61,047 bases of DNA. Source: Candidatus Methylacidiphilales bacterium (lineage in GTDB: Bacteria; Verrucomicrobiota; Verrucomicrobiia; Methylacidiphilales; JAAUTS01). Location: positions 1 through 61,047 of the forward strand of contig JAQTNW010000021.1 in the NCBI GenBank assembly GCA_028713655.1. The letters are read 5' to 3'. Position numbers and translations under genes: made by a program. This document shows, piece by piece, positions 45,960-56,744 of this stretch. Numbering within the stretch: the first letter of the stretch is position 1; each line of letters begins with the position of its first letter. The notes under the pieces are model-generated. The model was not told the origin of the DNA and did no database searches. It saw nothing but the letters and a program-made list of their open reading frames with translations.

Positions 45960-46085
45960 CAGAGGAAATTTCGCGCCAAGTACGCCAAGACCGCAAAGAA
46001 TTCATGGAATAAATTGCCTCTTTTAACCAAAAAATGTATTGAGTTTTCCGTGGCGTGCTTTGCGCCCTTTGCGCGAGATTCCAAT
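45960..46085. repeat. Repeat-bearing gap between truB and ribF
   Basis: Contains cgcgccaagtacgccaagac (45974-45993) facing gtgctttgcgccctttgcgc (46055-46074), the same word family as at 3129, 11918, and 13072. The two arms are inverted, as at 3122-3474. Confidence 0.6.
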
Positions 46086-46104
46086 CCGTAGCTTTTTTAT
46101 CCTC

Positions 46105-47034
46105 ATGAATGTCTTTGAATCTTTGTATGAAGCCCGCAGCCACGGCGGCATACAGGCATTGGCGCTGGGGTTTTTTGACGGCCTGCATCTTGGACATCAA
46201 CGCGTAATTAAAAACGCAGCGTTGGACCAGCCGCCCGAATCCTCATGCGTTCTGACGTTCCGTGTGCATCCCCAATCCGTTTTGTTTCCGGAAAAGGCGC
46301 CGCCTTTGCTCATGGGGCTGCCTCACAAATTAAAGGCGCTCGAGGAGGCGGGCGTCCACAATGTCCTGGCCCTGCCCTTCGATGAAAGGACCATCCATAC
46401 CCCCGCCGAAGACTTTTTGGAAGCGCTGGAAACCTCTTTCCCCGGCCTAAAACGAATTGCCGTCGGCCCGAATTGGCGCTTCGGTTACAAGCGGCTCGGC
46501 GATATTCCCCTGCTCCGGCAATGGTGTGATACACGCAGAAACAAAATTGAACTGCTCCTGGCCGAGCCTGCCCGCCATGCCGGTGCCATCATCAGCAGCA
46601 GCCGGATTCGCGCCAGTGTACTCAACGGCAATCTGGCTGAGGCCTCTGAAATGCTGGGTCGGCCCTATGGATTGTTCGGAACCGTAACCCGCGGAAAGGG
46701 CCTTGGCAAGCAACTTGGGTTTCCGACCCTAAATCTGGAGACACAGGACCAGTGCTTCCCCCCATCCGGCGTTTATTTCGGGGTTGTACAACTGCAGCCG
46801 TCTGAAAACCTTCCGGCAGCGATCAACATCGGGATCAAACCCACAATCGGGAGCGGAGGTCCGCCGCAGGCTGAAGCCCATATCCTGGATTTTAACGCAA
46901 ATCTCTATGGAAAATCGGTCCTGGTTTGTCCGCTTCAATTCCAGCGCGCGGAGAAAAAATTCGATTCATTGGACGCCTTAAAGCTGCAGGTCCAACAGGA
47001 TTTGGCCGCGGCCAGAGCCTGGGTCTGCAGATGA
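46105..47034 (+). CDS. ribF: Bifunctional riboflavin kinase/FAD synthetase
   Basis: A 309-residue enzyme making FMN and FAD. The N-terminal nucleotidyltransferase domain has LGFFDGLHLGHQRVI and VGPNWRFGYKRLGD and ISSSRIRASVLNGN; the C-terminal kinase domain starts GTVTRGKGLGKQLGFPTLNL and includes PPSGVYFGVVQL. The product FAD serves the halogenase-like flavoprotein among others. The ATG at 46105 was chosen over 46039, whose extra residues come from repeat sequence. Confidence 0.94.
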   Translation: MNVFESLYEARSHGGIQALALGFFDGLHLGHQRVIKNAALDQPPESSCVLTFRVHPQSVLFPEKAPPLLMGLPHKLKALEEAGVHNVLALPFDERTIHTPAEDFLEALETSFPGLKRIAVGPNWRFGYKRLGDIPLLRQWCDTRRNKIELLLAEPARHAGAIISSSRIRASVLNGNLAEASEMLGRPYGLFGTVTRGKGLGKQLGFPTLNLETQDQCFPPSGVYFGVVQLQPSENLPAAINIGIKPTIGSGGPPQAEAHILDFNANLYGKSVLVCPLQFQRAEKKFDSLDALKLQVQQDLAAARAWVCR

Positions 47035-47181: not shown

Positions 47182-49677
47182 CTAACTCTTCGCGGGATTT
47201 TTGAGGCCCGCGGTCTGGTTGAACGGCTCACCGTCAGGTCGCAGGATGCGCACTGTGACAAAGATCAGCATGTTCTTTTTGATCGCCTGTTCCGCCTTGC
47301 TGCGGAAGAGCCGGCCAAACAGCGGGATGTCGCCAAGAATGGGTACCTTGTCGTTTACAGTCGAAATATCCTCCCGGATCAATCCCCCCAACACCATGGT
47401 ATAGCCGTCCTGGATTTCCATCTGCGCATTTTCCACCGTGCGGGTTGAAAACACCGGCTGATTGATGACGTTGTTGTTAATAAGAGCGCCATGGCTTACA
47501 CCAAGGCTGTCTGTAATGGGATCTACTGCATGCGCCTGGCCGTCAACGGTGCTGAACATGGGCGAGCCATAATTGATAAAGCCGTCAAACTCCGTGACAT
47601 CCGGCTTGATGACCAGATAAACCCGCTGGTGGTCCGGGGTCACACGAGGCTGCACTGTCAGCACGACACCGACATTCCGGCTCTCAAATTGAGTGGGCCA
47701 AGCGGGAATAACAATGGGCGCAGTAGGTGTCGTTCCTATAACGGTTAGATTGCCATTCGTGTTGGAAGAGACAATATTCACAGGCTGTACTTTTGGAGCG
47801 TCAAATTCCGTTGGGTAATAAAATTCACGGGCTATGGTGATTTTGCCCTGCGCACCGTCGTTCACCACGATCGTTGGGGCTGTCAACAAATCCGTACTTT
47901 GCTTTTGACTGAGCGCATCCAACAAGGCGGCAAACTGGGTCCCGCTCAACCTGCCGCTGATGCCAAAACGATTGGGATTTGAAACGACCGACCCGGGATT
48001 GTTTGCAAGCACCGACGCGGATTCATTGCTTGATAAAAAGGCGGAAATTCCATCGGTTGGCTTGATGGCCGTGGAACCCTGCAAATTGGTTCCCAAAGCG
48101 CCAATGCCGACAGCGTAGTTCTGGCCGGGGATGAAAAAGGCATTGGCCAGATTCCAATTAAATGCCAATGAATCCAAATCGGTTTGGTTGACTTCCAGCA
48201 GCTTGGCCTGCACGCTCACAATCAGGGTTTCACCCTGGTTCTCCGTCACCAGTTCCTCAATCAAATCAATCTGGTCCTGGGTATTGCGAACCGTCAGAAT
48301 GCCCGTCGCCCGGCTGTAAATGGCGGTCGCTCCTTCTGAAAACTGCACTCCGCGCGCTTCCAAAGCCTTGCGCACCTGGTCTCCAGCCCCCGCCGCCCCC
48401 GCCGTGTCACTGTCCACTGTCGTTACTGCCACACGCCGCCGTCCACCGCCGGCGTTGGCATCCGTGTTGTCTCCCCCCTCGGAGTTTTCCGTATCAAAAA
48501 AAGTCGCCCGCACGGGGAACTCGCGGGTCACCAGGGTTTCATTGCGGTCACTCAACGGGACAATAAAAACGGCAAATTCCTCCAGGCGATACCGCACTCC
48601 TGCCAGGTTCGTGATATACCGCAACACCTCGCCCACCGGCACATTGCTCAATTTCAGGGAAAAGGTCTTTCCCTGCTGTTTAACCTGCTCGTTGCGGATC
48701 AGGAAATTGATTCCAGTACCTTCGGGATCCACCAGGCGGGACTGGTCCGTCAAAAAACGCACGGCATCCTCGATCGTCGCATCGTTGAAATCCACCTGTT
48801 TTATCACCAGCGTGCGCAGCTTTTGATCCAGCCGGAATTCGTTCTTTTTGGTGATCGGCACCGTATTGGCTGTCTGTACCGAACCCAGATTCTTGTCGAT
48901 CTGGAACCGTTCCGTCCATTGGTCGCGAGTCTGGGTCTTTCGCTCTTGATTACTGGACTTCCTGGCAATCTCCATGGCGGCAGCCATCTTGTCCTGAAGC
49001 TTTTGAATTTCCCGGGCTGCCACTTTGTTGTAGGGATCAATGGCCAGCGCCTGCTCAAAAGCCTTTTCTGCTGCCGCATATTGCCCTGTGGCCATCAAAT
49101 CCTCGCCGGATTTGATGTCGTCCTGAACTTGGTTCAGGTTCGAAATAAATTTCCGGTCTATCGCCGGATTCGCCGGTTTATCCTCTCCCGATTTGATTCC
49201 AAGAACCTCATTGCTGTCGCTTATGATCTTGGACGCCTCGGCATTCTTCGGATTTTCGCTCAGGGCCAGGCTGGCGGCATCTCGGGCGCCAAAATAATCC
49301 TTGTTTTTAAATGCCTCGGCTGCCTTGGCTGAATCCAGTTCTGAAAGAATCTGGCTGGCTTTCGCATACACGGGGGCACCCTCGCCCGAATTCGGCAAAT
49401 CCTTGGTGACCTCGGCCACTTTCTCACGGGCTTCATCCATTTTACCGACTGCGATCAGATTTTGCGCCTCATCCAACTTCTTTGTCGCGGCCAGGAGCAG
49501 TTCCTGCCGCCGGATGGTTTCACGCTGCAAAATCTCGCGGGACATGTCGCTGGGGGCATCCTGGGCTTGCAACACGCCTGTGCCTGGTAAGAACAGAAAA
49601 CCGCCACTGAGCAAAACCGCGGCGGCGAGCGTCTTTACAAACAGGTATTTTCTAAAAATCGGCATCCAACTTTTCAT
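47182..49677 (-). CDS. Second secretin of the pilus-like operon (Amuc_1098 family)
   Basis: An 831-residue outer-membrane secretin. N-terminal signal segment (VKTLAAAVLLSGGFLFLP), a TPR-like helical zone (about 45-240, DYFGARDAASLALSENPKNA, AAAEKAFEQALAIDPYNKVA), an N-domain (about 285-400), and a secretin core ending in VPILGDIPLFGRLFRSKAEQ, the family signature. It overlaps the first secretin gene (ATGA) and is clearly related to it, but has a different middle and TPR part. Two secretins in tandem suggest mixed or alternative pores. It is the last gene of the operon. Confidence 0.88.
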   Translation of the reverse strand: MKSWMPIFRKYLFVKTLAAAVLLSGGFLFLPGTGVLQAQDAPSDMSREILQRETIRRQELLLAATKKLDEAQNLIAVGKMDEAREKVAEVTKDLPNSGEGAPVYAKASQILSELDSAKAAEAFKNKDYFGARDAASLALSENPKNAEASKIISDSNEVLGIKSGEDKPANPAIDRKFISNLNQVQDDIKSGEDLMATGQYAAAEKAFEQALAIDPYNKVAAREIQKLQDKMAAAMEIARKSSNQERKTQTRDQWTERFQIDKNLGSVQTANTVPITKKNEFRLDQKLRTLVIKQVDFNDATIEDAVRFLTDQSRLVDPEGTGINFLIRNEQVKQQGKTFSLKLSNVPVGEVLRYITNLAGVRYRLEEFAVFIVPLSDRNETLVTREFPVRATFFDTENSEGGDNTDANAGGGRRRVAVTTVDSDTAGAAGAGDQVRKALEARGVQFSEGATAIYSRATGILTVRNTQDQIDLIEELVTENQGETLIVSVQAKLLEVNQTDLDSLAFNWNLANAFFIPGQNYAVGIGALGTNLQGSTAIKPTDGISAFLSSNESASVLANNPGSVVSNPNRFGISGRLSGTQFAALLDALSQKQSTDLLTAPTIVVNDGAQGKITIAREFYYPTEFDAPKVQPVNIVSSNTNGNLTVIGTTPTAPIVIPAWPTQFESRNVGVVLTVQPRVTPDHQRVYLVIKPDVTEFDGFINYGSPMFSTVDGQAHAVDPITDSLGVSHGALINNNVINQPVFSTRTVENAQMEIQDGYTMVLGGLIREDISTVNDKVPILGDIPLFGRLFRSKAEQAIKKNMLIFVTVRILRPDGEPFNQTAGLKNPAKS

Positions 49678-52313
49678 TTTGTCTCCCCCGAACCCGGCAG
49701 CGACGACACTTCCATGGTTTCCTTTTCACCTTCTGTCAGGTACTCCGGTGAGCCATCCGCCCGGATCATGCGGGCTGTGATAAACATGACCAGATTCCGT
49801 TTCACCGTCTGGCTGACCTTGCTCCGGAACAAGCGGCCCAGCAATGGAACGTCGCCTAAAACCGGAACCTTGTCTTCGATCTCCTTGTTATCCGAACGGA
49901 TAAACCCGCCCATCACCACCGTCTGGCCATCAATCACCTGGAGTTTGGTCTCCACCGAGCGCAACGAAAACACCGGCGTCAAAGCCGTGCCCGTGGCCAC
50001 GGTTACAATGGGAGGAGGCCCACTCGGAGTAAAAAAGAAGAATAAAAAACCGAAAGGATCCGTGATTTCAGAAATGGTTCCATTTACCCCCAAAGTCGTG
50101 GCATCGCCTCCATAATTGATAAATCCCTGGAACTCCGTCACATCCGGTTTAAGCTCCAGGTCAATCCGGCGGTCTGCCGTGGCGTTTGCCTTCACATCCA
50201 GGGTGACCCCGACATCCCGCGAAACAAAGTTGGTGGGATTCGACGGTATCACGGTGGTGGTACCCAGACTGACGTTGTTGTTGCCGCCGCCGCCAGTGCT
50301 TTGAGGTATCTGCGGCGCTTCCCATTCCGTGGGATAACGAAATTCACGAACCACGCGTATTTTTGTTTTTTGGCCGCTGACCACCGTCACCTTTGGAGCA
50401 GACATCAAATCAGCACCCAACTTGCTTTCCAACGCCGAAATCAGGAGCTGGGCCTGCGAACCGGCCAAGATACCCGTCACACTGATCAAATTCGGGCTTC
50501 GGGTATTCTGCAGGCCAAGTAGCGCGTCCAAGCTGTTCGGGGAAGTAATCAACTCATCCGTCGAATCCCGGAGGGCAGTGGCGCCACCGATGCTTGATCC
50601 AATCTGGCCCGCCCCAAAGTTGGGAGTGCGGCCGTTCCCGATCGCTCCTATGCCCCCTGTCCCCGTAGCCGCACCTGTTATATTTGGGATGGTAATCGGC
50701 GATTTAAACGTGGCATTCACACGAAAATTCGACGCGAAGTCCTTGAGTTTGTCTTCTGTAAATTCGATGAATTTGGCTTCGACTTCGACCTGACTCACTG
50801 CATTGGCCTCCTTCCCCACCAACTGTTCGATCAGGTTCAACTGGTCCAGCGTGTTGCGCGCCACAAGCTTCGCCGTTTTGGGCAGATAGGCCGCGCTGGC
50901 CCCGTTGGCAAACTTGACGCCCCGCTCTTCCAATGCCTTTTTCACATCCACCGTCACAACATTCACCGTCGCATTGTTCAAAGCACCGACCGTTGTGGTA
51001 TCGGTTTTCAGAGTCTGCGGGAAAAACGTGGGTGGAACCGAGTAGCTCTTCACCACCATCACATCGCTGGTTTCCGTGTTGGGGAAAAAGTACACGGCGT
51101 ATTCCTCAACCTTGAATTTGTAGGTGGTGAGTTCCGGAATATAACCCAGAATTTTCAACAGCGAAAGATTGCGCAAATTGAGGGAAAGGCTGTGGATGGA
51201 TGGAGGCGGTGCGGGAGCTTCCGCAGCGGCAGCCCCCCCTGGAGCAGCAGCAGGCGCCGGGTTGTTCAGAGCCGTCGGCTCGCCTTTCAACACAAAATTC
51301 ACACCCTCGCCCTTGGGATCAATCACCTTGCTTTGCTCCTGCAAATAGCGCAGCACATCGGCCACATCGGCATCCGTGAAGTTACATTCCGGTATGATGA
51401 TCTTTTCCAGCTTGTCATACATCTTGGACACGTCCGAGGAGGTCGCCTCCGAGACAGATGTGCCCGTGAGATCCGTTCTCTGGGGCCTCGGTTGGGTCGC
51501 CCATTCCGCATCAACCTGTTGCAACATCTTGGTCTTGCGCTCTTCGCGGCGGATCGAAGCCACTTGGTATTTTATGTTTTCGGTCTTCTCAATCCGCTGA
51601 CGGGCCTGGTTGTTATAAGGATCAATCAGTAAAACTTCCTTGTACCGGCCGATGGCGCGGTTGTACTGGCCCGTCTCGTAAAAACTGTCGCCCTCAAATA
51701 TCAATTTCTGAATATTGGCCACTTTGTCCTGCAGTTCCGGAGTGGCGGCCGTGTTGCCGGGATATTTTTCCGCCACACTCTGGCTCTGCTCCTTCACTTG
51801 CGCATAGGCGGACTTATATGAAGCGTTATCAGGATCATAACTCAAGGCCTCTTCCCATAACTGGCGCGCCTGGGCATAGTCCTTTTTCGCCGCAGCCTGC
51901 CTCGCCTGTTCTGCGCTGACGATTGCAAGTCCCTTGCGGGCTTTGAAATACAACCCGGACATCGGCCCATCCGGGCTCGTTTGCTTGTAAACCTGTTCGT
52001 AGCGTGGACGGGCGGCCGTGATTTCTCCCGCAGCCACAAGCCGGTCGGCTTCTTCCAGTTGTTTGTTGAACAGCATGGTCCCTTCCAGGCGTTTGACTGT
52101 CTCTTCCTGCACCAAAGGATTAGCTTCCGCATCCGACGGCGCAGCAGCTTCCTGCTTTGGCACTGCCGGTGCGGCAGATGTTTCAACCACTGGCGCGGTA
52201 GGAGCGGGAGCGGCAGGTGTAGCATCCTGGGCTGCTCCAGACGACTCAAACGAAAGAATTGCCGCCAAAGAAACGGCAAGCCAAAACGGCTGGTTATAAA
52301 AATCTGATTTCAT
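49674..52313 (-). CDS. Amuc_1098-family type IV pilus-like secretin
   Basis: An 879-residue secretin with a signal segment (LAVSLAAILSFESSGAAQD), a TPR-like zone (about 65-265; QAAAKKDYAQARQLWEEAL, YNRAIGRYKEVLLIDPYNNQ), a short N-domain (about 320-435) and the secretin core with VPVLGDVPLLGRLFRSKVSQ near the end. The Ala/Pro-rich segment (PAAAPGGAAAAEAPAPP) inside the N-domain is an insertion. The gene follows the Amuc_1099-like gene after 54 bases. Secretin rings form the outer-membrane gate for pili or secreted proteins. Confidence 0.92.
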   Translation of the reverse strand: MKSDFYNQPFWLAVSLAAILSFESSGAAQDATPAAPAPTAPVVETSAAPAVPKQEAAAPSDAEANPLVQEETVKRLEGTMLFNKQLEEADRLVAAGEITAARPRYEQVYKQTSPDGPMSGLYFKARKGLAIVSAEQARQAAAKKDYAQARQLWEEALSYDPDNASYKSAYAQVKEQSQSVAEKYPGNTAATPELQDKVANIQKLIFEGDSFYETGQYNRAIGRYKEVLLIDPYNNQARQRIEKTENIKYQVASIRREERKTKMLQQVDAEWATQPRPQRTDLTGTSVSEATSSDVSKMYDKLEKIIIPECNFTDADVADVLRYLQEQSKVIDPKGEGVNFVLKGEPTALNNPAPAAAPGGAAAAEAPAPPPSIHSLSLNLRNLSLLKILGYIPELTTYKFKVEEYAVYFFPNTETSDVMVVKSYSVPPTFFPQTLKTDTTTVGALNNATVNVVTVDVKKALEERGVKFANGASAAYLPKTAKLVARNTLDQLNLIEQLVGKEANAVSQVEVEAKFIEFTEDKLKDFASNFRVNATFKSPITIPNITGAATGTGGIGAIGNGRTPNFGAGQIGSSIGGATALRDSTDELITSPNSLDALLGLQNTRSPNLISVTGILAGSQAQLLISALESKLGADLMSAPKVTVVSGQKTKIRVVREFRYPTEWEAPQIPQSTGGGGNNNVSLGTTTVIPSNPTNFVSRDVGVTLDVKANATADRRIDLELKPDVTEFQGFINYGGDATTLGVNGTISEITDPFGFLFFFFTPSGPPPIVTVATGTALTPVFSLRSVETKLQVIDGQTVVMGGFIRSDNKEIEDKVPVLGDVPLLGRLFRSKVSQTVKRNLVMFITARMIRADGSPEYLTEGEKETMEVSSLPGSGETK

Positions 52314-52367
52314 GGAGCTTCTTTCTACTTTTTTATGTATATTGCAGTAAAATATAAGGTCAAGCGT

Positions 52368-53345
52368 TTACTGAGTGGGGGGTGCAGGCGCCGGCATGGT
52401 TGTCGCCGCCGAAATTTGAATCGTTTCGCCGCTTGCCAGGTCCTTGATCGTGGCCTCCTGCGGGCTGGCTTTCAGCACCTGATAGCTCTTGTCATCCAGC
52501 TTGAAGCTGTCCCCGCGCTTGACTTCGGAAGGTTCAACCTTTTTGCCGGGGACATTGATGCTGAACGCAACCCGGCTTTCGTCCGACTCCTTTTCCGTAT
52601 TCAAAACCAGCGTGGTCACCTCGTCCAATTTTGTGTTGATCATGTCAAGTTCCGAGCGATCCGGATGGGTCAGGGAATGAGTTTTTTCATCAAACACCTC
52701 AACAATTTTCTCCCGATAATCCCCAACCTTGTATCCTTCGGTTTCATCGCCTTTTTTGACAAAACGCGTCCGGTTCCGGGACACATCCATCAGGTTGATC
52801 TGGAATTGGATGGTGCCATCCGACAGCTTGTTGGCCGCTTTGAAAACCATACGGAAGGGCACCTTGGTGTAATGCGCGATCCTTAATTTAACGATGATGG
52901 GAGGGCGGGAATTCGGGTCGAGGGGATTGGTCTTGGCCAGAAATTCCTCCTTGTTTGTAAAACCGTCGTTGTCCGGATCCGCATCCGCGACCTTCAAATC
53001 ATCAATCGGGAAGCCGTATTTAATTTTCCATCCCGCCGTGATCCCGTCTTCCATCGGGTCCTGCGGGTTCAGCCATTCAATTTTACCGCTTGTAGGATGA
53101 TAGACAATCAGGCGCGACACGAATATTTTGTGCTCGCCAACGGCAAGTTCCGGCGCCTTCGCCCACTCGTCCGCCATGCCGGCGTAACGGTCAACATTCA
53201 ACGGGGACACATTTTTACCATGCCCCGGGGACGGGGGTCCGCTTTTCTCGGGCAGCAAAAAAACCTTGGCCAGCAGTGCCACTCCGAAAACAACCAGTAC
53301 GCCAAACAGCAGCCATTGCTCAGGCTTAAGCTGGAAGAACTTCAT
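52368..53345 (-). CDS. Amuc_1099-family pilus-like protein
   Basis: A 325-residue membrane protein with one N-terminal transmembrane helix (WLLFGVLVVFGVALLAKVFL) and a large extracytoplasmic part. Notable is DADPDNDGFTNKEEFLAKTN, a calcium-binding type-3-like repeat (DxDxDG...E). The C-terminal zone has an anti-parallel strand run (SFKLDDKSYQVLKASPQEAT). It overlaps the Amuc_1100-like gene by ATGA. By position it is equivalent to PilP-type alignment proteins that touch the secretin. Confidence 0.83.
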   Translation of the reverse strand: MKFFQLKPEQWLLFGVLVVFGVALLAKVFLLPEKSGPPSPGHGKNVSPLNVDRYAGMADEWAKAPELAVGEHKIFVSRLIVYHPTSGKIEWLNPQDPMEDGITAGWKIKYGFPIDDLKVADADPDNDGFTNKEEFLAKTNPLDPNSRPPIIVKLRIAHYTKVPFRMVFKAANKLSDGTIQFQINLMDVSRNRTRFVKKGDETEGYKVGDYREKIVEVFDEKTHSLTHPDRSELDMINTKLDEVTTLVLNTEKESDESRVAFSINVPGKKVEPSEVKRGDSFKLDDKSYQVLKASPQEATIKDLASGETIQISAATTMPAPAPPTQ

Positions 53346-54376
53346 GATTTGCCTCCGGGTTGCGTTTCTGCGGATGCGGGCGCTTTTTTTCCGCCCGAGG
53401 ATGCGGTTGGTAAATTTTGGAAATCAATCAAATCCACCCGCATCCTCACATTCAACAGCTCCTGCCCCACGACCGGCACCACCAGTTTATTGGGCCCCGA
53501 TTCGTCCGGCTGGGCTCCGGGCAGTCCGCCCCCTGCAATGGCAGGCGAAGCCACTCCCTTGATTTCGGAGCGCGTGGCAATGGAATTTTTTTCATTTTCA
53601 ACCGTCAGCGAACGAATGATAAAAAAACAGTCGGATGCCACCAGCTTGTTGACCACTTCAGTCAGCGCGTCGGTGGAGCCTGTGAATGAAAACTCGAATG
53701 GATAAACTTTGTAGGCGTCATTCGGTCCGCTGACAACCGCCGCCGGCATCGCTTCATCTCCCTCTGTGAATGAAGCCAGCCCGCCTGCGGATCCGTCCGC
53801 GCGCTTTTCTTCAACGATCACGCGTTTGATCCCGTTGAGGGATTTGATCCGGGCGTTGAACAGGACCTGGTTCACCTGCTCGATTGCCAGCAGTTGCACC
53901 CCCAAATCCAGCGTCGCGTCCGCCTTGGGACTGGTCAGCCGGTAGGCTTTGAATCCGAAATCATAGTCCTCGGGAAGCTTGACCTTGTTCGCGCCGGCCA
54001 GCTTGCGCAATTGCTCGCGTTTTTCCCCAAAAAGCCGTTTCCAGGAGTCGGAGTCCAACAACCCGCGGATTCCCTTGCCGTCGGGCTTCGGGCTCCGCAC
54101 TGCCGCAAAAATGGAGGATGCTTTTTGAATGGGGGCCTGCACGGAATTCAAAATTTCCGCCAGCTTCGCATCGTTGCTCTGGAGGCCTTTGAGATTACCC
54201 CGGGTGGGCAGGATTCCGCCGCCGCTGAGGGTTTCCATTTGCTTGTGAATTTCCCCGATCCGCAAGATCTTTTCATCAATCTGCGTCCCGAACCAATAGC
54301 ACAAAGCCCCGGCCATCAGCCCGCTCACCAAAAACAGGACCGCCAGCGATTTGATGTTGGATGGGATTTTTTTCAT
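53342..54376 (-). CDS. Amuc_1100-family pilus-like protein
   Basis: A 344-residue membrane protein with an N-terminal transmembrane helix (SLAVLFLVSGLMAGALCYWF), then a coiled-coil-rich extracytoplasmic part. It lies third in the six-gene operon, between the PilM-like and Amuc_1099-like genes, where Akkermansia has Amuc_1100, a PilO-like protein known for immune effects in the host. Similarity is inferred from order, size and architecture plus the general sequence feel (e.g. FSFTGSTDALTEVVNKLVAS, a PilO-like strand-helix). Overlaps both neighbours by ATGA. Confidence 0.83.
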   Translation of the reverse strand: MKKIPSNIKSLAVLFLVSGLMAGALCYWFGTQIDEKILRIGEIHKQMETLSGGGILPTRGNLKGLQSNDAKLAEILNSVQAPIQKASSIFAAVRSPKPDGKGIRGLLDSDSWKRLFGEKREQLRKLAGANKVKLPEDYDFGFKAYRLTSPKADATLDLGVQLLAIEQVNQVLFNARIKSLNGIKRVIVEEKRADGSAGGLASFTEGDEAMPAAVVSGPNDAYKVYPFEFSFTGSTDALTEVVNKLVASDCFFIIRSLTVENEKNSIATRSEIKGVASPAIAGGGLPGAQPDESGPNKLVVPVVGQELLNVRMRVDLIDFQNLPTASSGGKKAPASAETQPGGKS

Positions 54377-56094
54377 GGCTGCAGGTCCGGCGTCTTCTCG
54401 GCTTTCAAGGCCGCCTGGATCGTGAATTTCCTGGCAACCTGGTCTGAGTCAAAAACATCCGACTCCGTCACCTTGACGCTGTCGAAATAGCCCGAGGTCT
54501 GGAGCTTTGAAACAAAAGCCGCCAGCAGATCGTCCGACTTCTCGCGCCCGTTGTTTTCAGGAACTTCAAAAAAGCCGCGTATCTGCAAAATGGCCGGTTC
54601 GGGCAATGCCGTCGCATGGGGATTGGGATTGGAGTGCGGGCCTCCGGGTTTCACCATGTTGTCGATTGCCAGTTCCATCTGGCTGACCCATATCCCGTTG
54701 AAGGTTCCGGTGCTTTCGTAAACCACGCCCAACAAATGCGGCCAGAAATTCCTCTGCTCCAGCAATTTTTGTATCCCCTCGGTAACGGCCAAATCGCGGC
54801 CAAACGACTTGCTTTCCTTTTCAATCTGGTGCGCCAGTTGGTTCTTGTTGTTCAAGTCAGACTCTAAATCGTTGGCCTCCACCGAAAGCCGGTCCAGGCT
54901 CAAAAGGCTCGATCCCACCAGCACGGCAAGCATCAAAACCCAGACCACAAATGCCGCGGCCAGATAAGGCAGCCGCCGCTTGACGGCCCGCTTGTCCGCT
55001 ACACTGGAGGGCACCAGATTAACCTCAACCGGAACATCCTCCAAGCGCCGGGTCGCCAGGCCCACCACTTCACCCAGCAGATAAGCGTCCGACCCCAGTG
55101 CGCCAAGATCGATTTTTGGCGATAATTTTATGTTGCTCAGCGGATTGAAGAATTCCACCGGCATGTTCAATTTTTCCCGGAAAAACAGGTCCGTGTACGG
55201 CATGGCGGAAGCGCCTCCCGCCAGCAGCACTTTCTGCGGCGAAGAACCCGCCTGCTGGTTGCGGTAAAAACTGATGGAGCGGCTGATCTCGGCATGAAGG
55301 CGCGAGAATACACTGCGCGCGATTTTTGAAATCCGGGCCGCGGTCTGGTCATCGGGGTCGGCATAGGCGCCGCCCAGCCCGACAAAGCCCTTGCCCTTCT
55401 TCATCATCTCCGAGGCCACATACGGCTCCTGGAATTCATTCGAGATATTCTGCGAGATCAGGTGCCCGCCAATCGGAATGGCCCGGCAAAAAATCTTTTT
55501 GCCTTCGATGAAAACCAGGTTCGTACACTTCGCGCCAATATCAATAATCAGATGGCAGGCATCGCTTTCCGGATAATTGTATTTATGGGCGTTCACCAAA
55601 GCCAGCGGCGCCACGTCCACCTTTTCCAGTTCAAGCTTGCAGAGCGACAGCACGGAATTGGCCTGTTCGACAAGATCGCTTTTTACGGCCACGATGACGG
55701 CTTCGATATCCTTGGCCCCCCGCCCTCCCAGCAATTGGTAATCCCAGACCACTTCATTGATCGGAAACGGCACATTCTGCTGGGCCTCAAACCCGATCAT
55801 CTGCTCAATCTGATCGGGCGCAACCGGCGGCAATTTGACAAAACGCGTGAAAACATACTGGCCGGAAATCGAACAATAAACAGGAAATGAGGCCAGCTTC
55901 TTTTCCCGCACAATCCCCTGCAGCGCCTCCACAAGAAACGGAAACATTTCCTGCTCCTTGTTCGGATCAAGGCCCAGGTCCCGGATTACATAATCGATCA
56001 GGGTCAGCCCACCGCCCGCATCCACCTGAAAATGACCCAGTTTGAGGGTGCTGGATCCCAGATCCAATGATAAATAATGCCTTGGTAACGCCAC
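54373..56094 (-). CDS. Amuc_1101-family PilM-like protein fused to PilN-like part
   Basis: A 573-residue fusion. Residues about 1-355 are a PilM-type actin-like ATPase: YLSLDLGSSTLKLGHF, IIDIGAKCTNLVFIEG and VLLAGGASAMPYTD are phosphate and adenosine motifs. VPVEVNLVPSS then matches the start of PilN (the cytoplasmic tail that binds PilM), followed by a transmembrane helix (LAAAFVVWVLMLAVLVGSSL), a coiled coil and a PilN-like extracytoplasmic domain. Start is GTG. The single chain replaces the PilM/PilN contact of classic type IV pili. Confidence 0.88.
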   Translation of the reverse strand: MALPRHYLSLDLGSSTLKLGHFQVDAGGGLTLIDYVIRDLGLDPNKEQEMFPFLVEALQGIVREKKLASFPVYCSISGQYVFTRFVKLPPVAPDQIEQMIGFEAQQNVPFPINEVVWDYQLLGGRGAKDIEAVIVAVKSDLVEQANSVLSLCKLELEKVDVAPLALVNAHKYNYPESDACHLIIDIGAKCTNLVFIEGKKIFCRAIPIGGHLISQNISNEFQEPYVASEMMKKGKGFVGLGGAYADPDDQTAARISKIARSVFSRLHAEISRSISFYRNQQAGSSPQKVLLAGGASAMPYTDLFFREKLNMPVEFFNPLSNIKLSPKIDLGALGSDAYLLGEVVGLATRRLEDVPVEVNLVPSSVADKRAVKRRLPYLAAAFVVWVLMLAVLVGSSLLSLDRLSVEANDLESDLNNKNQLAHQIEKESKSFGRDLAVTEGIQKLLEQRNFWPHLLGVVYESTGTFNGIWVSQMELAIDNMVKPGGPHSNPNPHATALPEPAILQIRGFFEVPENNGREKSDDLLAAFVSKLQTSGYFDSVKVTESDVFDSDQVARKFTIQAALKAEKTPDLQP

Positions 56095-56126
56095 GCCGGT
56101 GATCTGGTTGTTAGAACGCGTCTAAA

Positions 56127-56744
56127 TTAATTCTTGGGTTTGATCCGGTTGTAACGCCTCGCATCAAACGGCCACCAGGGAGAATCCTTGACCCCGATCA
56201 AGACCCCTGGAGTCGCCTGTCCCGCCGTAAACCAGTTGGGATCGTCCTTGTCACTCAGCTGATTCTTGCTCAGCTTGTCCTGCACTTGCCCGCCCGACAG
56301 AATCTCAATGTGCAAATTGGATTTTTTAAATCCCCGCGCCTTGTCCTTTTTGCCACCATAACGCAATAGGGCCATTGGATCCAAATACATGACAGCATAA
56401 TGCTCGCCCTTCGGCACATTGACATAGGTTTCCTCACCCGTCAGCACCACAAAGAGGTCGTTTTTCAAACTGTCCAAGCCATCAATGTAAAATTTAACCT
56501 GCACTTCTTCCGTGATCGGGTCCTGGGTCGAAAATTTGACCTCCGCCACATACCAGTCGTCACTTAGCTCTTTGGCCACATCCGAAGTGGGCCGCGAGAC
56601 CTCATTCGGCACATTCGCCTTGTCAAGTTTGAGGCTATTATTAATTATTTTAATATTATCGCCAGGCGCTTGTGCGCTGCAAATGGAATGGATTCCACCC
56701 AATAGAACACATGCCACCGCCAATCGCCCCATCATGGTATTCAT
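56127..56744 (-). CDS. Amuc_1102-family pilus-like exported protein
   Basis: A 205-residue protein with a signal segment (LAVACVLLGGIHSICSAQA) and a beta-rich mature part (DDWYVAEVKFSTQDPITEEV, VKFYIDGLDSLKNDLFVVLT). It has an Amuc_1102-like size and place as first gene of the operon. A conserved end (SPWWPFDARRYNRIKP) suggests a docking tail. It probably folds as a periplasmic beta sandwich; function unknown. Confidence 0.8.
   Translation of the reverse strand: MNTMMGRLAVACVLLGGIHSICSAQAPGDNIKIINNSLKLDKANVPNEVSRPTSDVAKELSDDWYVAEVKFSTQDPITEEVQVKFYIDGLDSLKNDLFVVLTGEETYVNVPKGEHYAVMYLDPMALLRYGGKKDKARGFKKSNLHIEILSGGQVQDKLSKNQLSDKDDPNWFTAGQATPGVLIGVKDSPWWPFDARRYNRIKPKN

Follow-up and report, generated by a model that had tools for sequence, protein, structure and literature searches.

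Organization of the locus

The DNA analysed here is a stretch of 61,047 nucleotides, referred to below as the window. Six open reading frames lie on its minus strand, from position 56744 to 47182 (Table 1). A preliminary description of this DNA had proposed an operon of the Amuc_1098-1102 type with an extra tandem secretin. An ORF check confirmed this reading: the six frames lie at the coordinates stated there, and their NCBIfam matches follow one another on one strand in the transcription order 1102-1101-1100-1099-1098, after which comes a second secretin of the 1098 type. The two secretins are called A and B in order of transcription.

Table 1. Features of the operon, in order of transcription. 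Cut-offs are NCBIfam equivalog cut-offs.
Feature	Position	Strand	Evidence
Amuc_1102/MUL2A-like periplasmic protein, 205 aa	56127..56744	-	NF042424 43 bits (cut-off 55); signal peptide by inspection
Amuc_1101/MUL2B-like protein, 573 aa, GTG start	54373..56094	-	NF045709 505 bits (cut-off 650)
Amuc_1100-like protein, 344 aa, PilO-like position	53342..54376	-	NF038287 122 bits (cut-off 180)
Amuc_1099-like protein, 325 aa, PilP position	52368..53345	-	NF042425 118 bits (cut-off 50)
Secretin A, 879 aa	49674..52313	-	NF042912 545 bits (cut-off 750); PF00263 108 bits
Secretin B, 831 aa	47182..49677	-	NF042912 525 bits (cut-off 750); PF00263 109 bits
ATGA overlap, stop of A / start of B	49674..49677	-	GGGGGAG ribosome-binding-like stretch inside A

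Among the five Amuc families only 1099 passes its equivalog cut-off; the matches to 1098, 1100, 1101 and 1102 stay below theirs. We thus regard the genes as family-level relatives in a homologous operon and not as equivalogs. The closest solved structures are Amuc_1102 for the 1102-like protein (7dsz, E 0.006) and Amuc_1100 for the 1100-like protein (6laf/6lad, E about 0.001), and a TSP3 motif is present in the 1099-like protein. The 1101-like protein joins a PilM part with the FtsA fold, which matches TIGR01175 just over its cut-off (136 vs 133 bits) as well as PF11104 (108 bits), to a PilN-like C-terminal part with a weak PF05137 match at residues 519-562.

Judging by these families, the operon encodes the alignment subcomplex of a type IV pilus-like machine together with its outer-membrane channel. 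The 1101-like protein would take the roles of PilM and PilN, the 1100-like protein that of PilO and the secretins that of PilQ, while the 1099-like protein would occupy the PilP position.

Overlaps of 4 bp with the sequence ATGA occur at three junctions, namely 1101/1100, 1100/1099 and secretin A/B. The last of these recurs at seven loci besides the window (L055, L056, L057, L112, L115, L120 and L122). Upstream of the operon lies a methionine synthase gene. Downstream, a convergent plus-strand gene (46039-47034) has the look of a riboflavin kinase/FAD synthetase when read by eye. A scan for promoters and terminators performed no better than on shuffled sequences.

Two complete and divergent secretins

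Both secretins begin with a signal peptide and share the same layout. Secretin A consists of a TPR region (66-272), an N0 domain (about 294-411), an N1-like domain (about 419-502) and a secretin core (508-850); the corresponding parts of secretin B are found at 45-254, about 277-374, about 383-480 and 486-812. AlphaFold models show all of these parts in both proteins: the TPR arm is helical, N0 and the N1-like domain are present, and the core is complete and beta-rich. With a mean pLDDT of 65 for A and 69 for B and a pTM of about 0.33, these models are usable for single domains and not for relative domain positions. The best fold match in the PDB is the same for both, PilQ of V. cholerae (6w6m; E 3.5e-13 for A and 7e-15 for B).

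Over 771 aligned residues the two proteins have an identity of 33%. It is lowest in the TPR region (28%) and N0 (29%) and rises to 36% in the N1-like domain and 39% in the core, which bears out the earlier remark that the second secretin is not a simple copy and differs in its TPR part and middle. The C-terminal core motifs GG[FL]I and GD[IV]PL[FL]GRLF are present in both. Single-copy lineages conserve 128 residues, of which 81 are retained in A and 75 in B, and the total tree lengths are 10.5 for A and 10.2 for B. On these measures neither protein looks degenerate, and the constraint on them appears similar. Complementary residue loss between A and B was not seen among the conserved positions; shared losses exceed chance and are ascribed to common ancestry. 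This test therefore lends no support to a division of labour between the two.

An assignment to a type II secretion operon, named in the preliminary description as a refuting outcome, fails. Secretins A and B reach about 100 bits against the GspD model TIGR02517, whose cut-off is 351, and the operon contains neither a GspD-type secretin nor Gsp neighbours. A separate type II system is encoded elsewhere in the genome: its GspD-type secretin is on contig C15, as are pseudopilin-like genes, and GspE/F are on contig C9.

Distribution of the secretin pair

Forty genomes of the window's order carry the operon secretin family. In 35 of them A and B are neighbours on a single contig; the remaining five have their secretin genes on different contigs or truncated at a contig end. 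None of the 40 is a proven single-secretin genome. The doubled secretin is thus a trait of the whole order and not a local oddity of this locus, and the conservation of the pair across the order excludes chance. The preliminary description was right that an extra secretin is present but too narrow on its distribution.

Thirteen genomes of family f8 of the order have neither 1098 nor 1101 matches. We provisionally identify the order as Methylacidiphilales and f8 as its family Methylacidiphilaceae. According to a survey from 2026, the 1099-1102 locus was not detected in Methylacidiphilales (PMC13174399). If our naming of the order is right, that absence fits f8 but not the rest of the order.

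The count of 40 leaves out two genomes of the window's own family (G002 and G005), in which pieces of the secretin occur in another context. At their loci (L062:1-8951 and L063:2037-7688), two or three BlaR1/MecR1-like M56 membrane peptidases stand in tandem. The C-terminal part of these peptidases is assembled from N0-N1 and secretin-domain pieces of the Amuc_1098 type, which share about 40% identity with residues 276-515 of secretin A of the window. Both genomes are without 1101. In a further member of this family (G001, L048:435-9831), 1101 and both secretins of the operon are fragmented into several frames, which reflects either decay or assembly errors.

At the level of the phylum, the secretin family was found in 223 of the 241 sampled genomes at E 1e-30. 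Exactly one secretin is present at 46 loci outside the tandem lineages, a count limited to loci whose secretin is followed by 2.5 kb of sequence or more. The earlier statement that the function of this machine is unknown outside Akkermansia is therefore too strong: the secretin family is phylum-wide, and the 1099-1102 locus (MUL2) has been tied to the capture of mucin or fucoidan via a type IV-like pilus in Akkermansiaceae, aquatic ones included (PMC13174399).

In two metagenome-assembled genomes of Verrucomicrobia subdivision 3 (L178:13637-16590 and L182:3655-6646), two genes 20-22 bp apart encode the secretin of an Amuc_1098-type operon, and the break falls inside the secretin domain. The pieces measure 757 or 772 aa and 219 or 216 aa. 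Judged by eye, the second piece carries a signal peptide of its own, which differs between the two genomes; in L178 this piece also matches PF00263 in its C-terminal part. The arrangement appears to be a genuine two-polypeptide secretin. Three other unusual gene structures were rejected: apparent fused double secretins in G012 and G027 (frames of 1954 and 1754 aa) read through stops, and ORF calling gives two ORFs, while a split secretin in G134 is merely a contig end.

Origin of the duplication

A tree of 79 secretins places all A sequences of the order in one clade and all B sequences in another, each with an SH-aLRT of 100. A smaller tree of 38 sequences agrees, with bootstrap values of 100 for A and 98 for B. 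These topologies indicate that the A/B duplication predates the diversification of the order. Neither A nor B is the true orthologue of Amuc_1098; the trees make them co-orthologues.

One could suppose that the pair arose by a recent local gene duplication and has no functional meaning, and the family does duplicate readily, as seen in a separate tandem pair at L091 and in unlinked copies in Akkermansia. The tree refutes this explanation, which we consider extremely improbable: the two clades span the order, none of the 40 genomes is proven to be single-copy, and A-A or B-B comparisons with the nearest relatives give about 50-57% identity vs about 33% between A and B of one genome. A and B are ancient, distinct paralogues, each with a complete secretin core, that have been kept together with a single 1099, 1100 and 1101. 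They are conserved and inherited together.

Other duplications have occurred in the family. The tandem pair at L091 is independent (93/87 support). The pairs at L058 and L123 group with A and B by position at only 45 and 51% bootstrap, and their origin may be shared with A and B or separate.

A. muciniphila (G180) has an operon secretin of 907 aa, the length published for Amuc_1098, which is reportedly more abundant than any other outer-membrane protein of this species (PMC4960237). A second Amuc_1098-family secretin of 841 aa is encoded about 670 kb from the operon and scores 990 bits, above the family cut-off. Every sampled genome of the genus has at least two family matches. The preliminary description would have been refuted by a second secretin that all Akkermansia possess as a known member. 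This applies only in part: A. muciniphila does have this unlinked family copy, but the tree groups it with its own family and so makes it a separate duplication. Unlinked second secretins of this kind were observed in A. muciniphila and two relatives (L090:8147-12334, L093:8986-13065 and L101:3704-7728), each followed by a conserved-looking protein of 494-546 aa without a convincing family match.

The rest of the pilus machine

In the window's genome 1099, 1100 and 1101 are each present in a single copy (for 1099, one full match). The pilus ATPases and the platform protein are unlinked from the operon: PilB-PilB-PilC are encoded on contig C7, with the tandem PilB-like ATPases placed before PilC (L190:1653-6371), and PilT-like ATPases on contigs C40 and C37. 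There are 13 N_methyl matches in the genome. It thus combines a PilM-like actin-fold protein, PilQ-like secretins, PilB, PilC, PilT and N-methylated pilins, which are features of type IVa systems. Contig C4 also carries a cluster that we take to be Tad-like. An isolated 321-aa ORF (C13:23674-23982, L005) matches the secretin domain at 44 bits and lies outside recognisable pilus or secretion clusters.

Single copies of 1099-1101, together with a type II system that has its own GspD elsewhere, suggest that both secretins probably serve one pilus machine. The presence of two full machines is not supported, as tandem PilB and PilT pairs occur in single-secretin lineages too. PilB is doubled phylum-wide, including in such lineages and in Akkermansia; a doubled secretin is hence no mark of a second complete machine.

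One mixed channel or two pores

We infer that A and B act together, because their order is invariant, their start is coupled, no member of the order is proven to be single-copy, the constraint on them is similar and their evolutionary rates are correlated. With the operon mean removed, the partial correlation of rates between A and B is 0.54 (jackknife 0.49-0.63; Spearman 0.65). The values for A-1099, A-1101, B-1102 and B-1099 are 0.56, 0.55, 0.50 and -0.03, respectively. This analysis covers 27 branches and 15 pairwise comparisons, and paralogues may covary trivially, without any contact, which makes the rate covariation a lead only.

The model that we prefer, tentatively and at somewhat less than an even chance, is a single mixed outer-membrane ring in which A docks to the 1099/1101 side. 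The ATGA overlap would allow A and B to be made in step by coupled translation, as obligate partners that together build one channel. A would be the main contact to 1099 and 1101, and B would be joined to A, perhaps facing 1102. Other pilus systems use a separate TPR pilotin (PilF/Tgl), and the TPR arms of A and B may replace it. The two-polypeptide secretin in subdivision 3 belongs to the same family and counts for a mixed ring. Against it stand the facts that coupled translation is known also for non-interacting proteins, that A and B show no complementary residue loss and that, to our knowledge, all secretin rings solved so far are homomers.

Alternatively, A and B might form two separate homomeric rings on one inner-membrane platform, each passing a different filament or serving a different step, for instance wide pili and narrow ones, or extension as opposed to uptake. 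The preliminary description had leaned this way. Its reading of two secretins with one inner-membrane platform is supported, 1099, 1100 and 1101 being single-copy, whereas two pores are not established. Both proteins do have a complete core, N0 and a TPR arm and match PilQ, the genome does encode two PilB ATPases, and the second secretin of Akkermansia is unlinked and so needs no co-assembly. However, two PilBs are also found where the secretin is single, A and B keep one arrangement and their coupling throughout the order, and the single PilQ of Thermus passes two different pili (PMC13039148), so that two filaments need not mean two pores. We regard two rings as the main rival, at clearly less than an even chance, with a single mixed pore no less likely than they are.

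It is also conceivable that one secretin forms the pore and the other is an assembly accessory, either chaperone- or pilotin-like by virtue of its TPR arm or a periplasmic ring. The asymmetry of the rate covariation (A with 1099 and 1101, B with 1102) would fit such roles, as would the reuse of secretin-derived pieces in the M56 sensor fusions of the same bacterial family. The C-terminal core, the conserved motifs and the whole beta-rich fold are kept in both proteins and neither is degenerate, which makes an accessory unlikely.

Returning to the mixed ring, we suggest with slightly more reserve that the whole order may build its type IV pilus channel from two distinct, obligatorily paired secretins, perhaps in alternation. 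By homology with MUL2, the likeliest use here would be to extrude a pilus that attaches to polymeric glycans or captures them.

Secretin rings are treated as homomers with a varying copy number. The paired secretins suggest that a pilus pore may consist of two kinds of subunit and not one. If the pair is indeed a conserved obligate one, it would either offer a natural system for testing whether the identity of the subunits determines the symmetry of the ring and its gating, or represent one platform feeding two pores. Reported copy numbers of pilus secretin rings range from 12 to 15 (PMC13039148). Our results also extend the glycan-capture locus of Akkermansia to an order where the 2026 survey did not detect it, and they show that the much-studied A. 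muciniphila holds a second secretin of the family. No description of a paired-secretin pilus system was found in the open-access literature searched.

Comparison with known systems

The closest known relative is the Amuc_1098-1102 operon of A. muciniphila, which shares all five families in identical order and orientation; its secretin also has the same layout of TPR, N0 and core. It ends with one secretin, whereas the operon in the window ends with two, and the second copy in Akkermansia is unlinked and stems from another duplication.

The type IVa PilMNOPQ system is similar in its PilM, which the window matches over the cut-off, in the PilQ-type fold of both secretins and in the presence of PilB, PilC and PilT in the genome. 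Unlike it, the window has a fusion of PilM and PilN-like parts, a TPR arm on the secretin, two secretins and unlinked ATPases.

The GspD operon of type II secretion shares the secretin superfamily with the window but differs in that the genome keeps its separate GspD-type secretin on contig C15. Other tandem Amuc_1098-type pairs (L091, L058 and L123) resemble the window in having two adjacent secretins of the family, and those at L091 and L123 stand, as here, at the end of the same type of operon.
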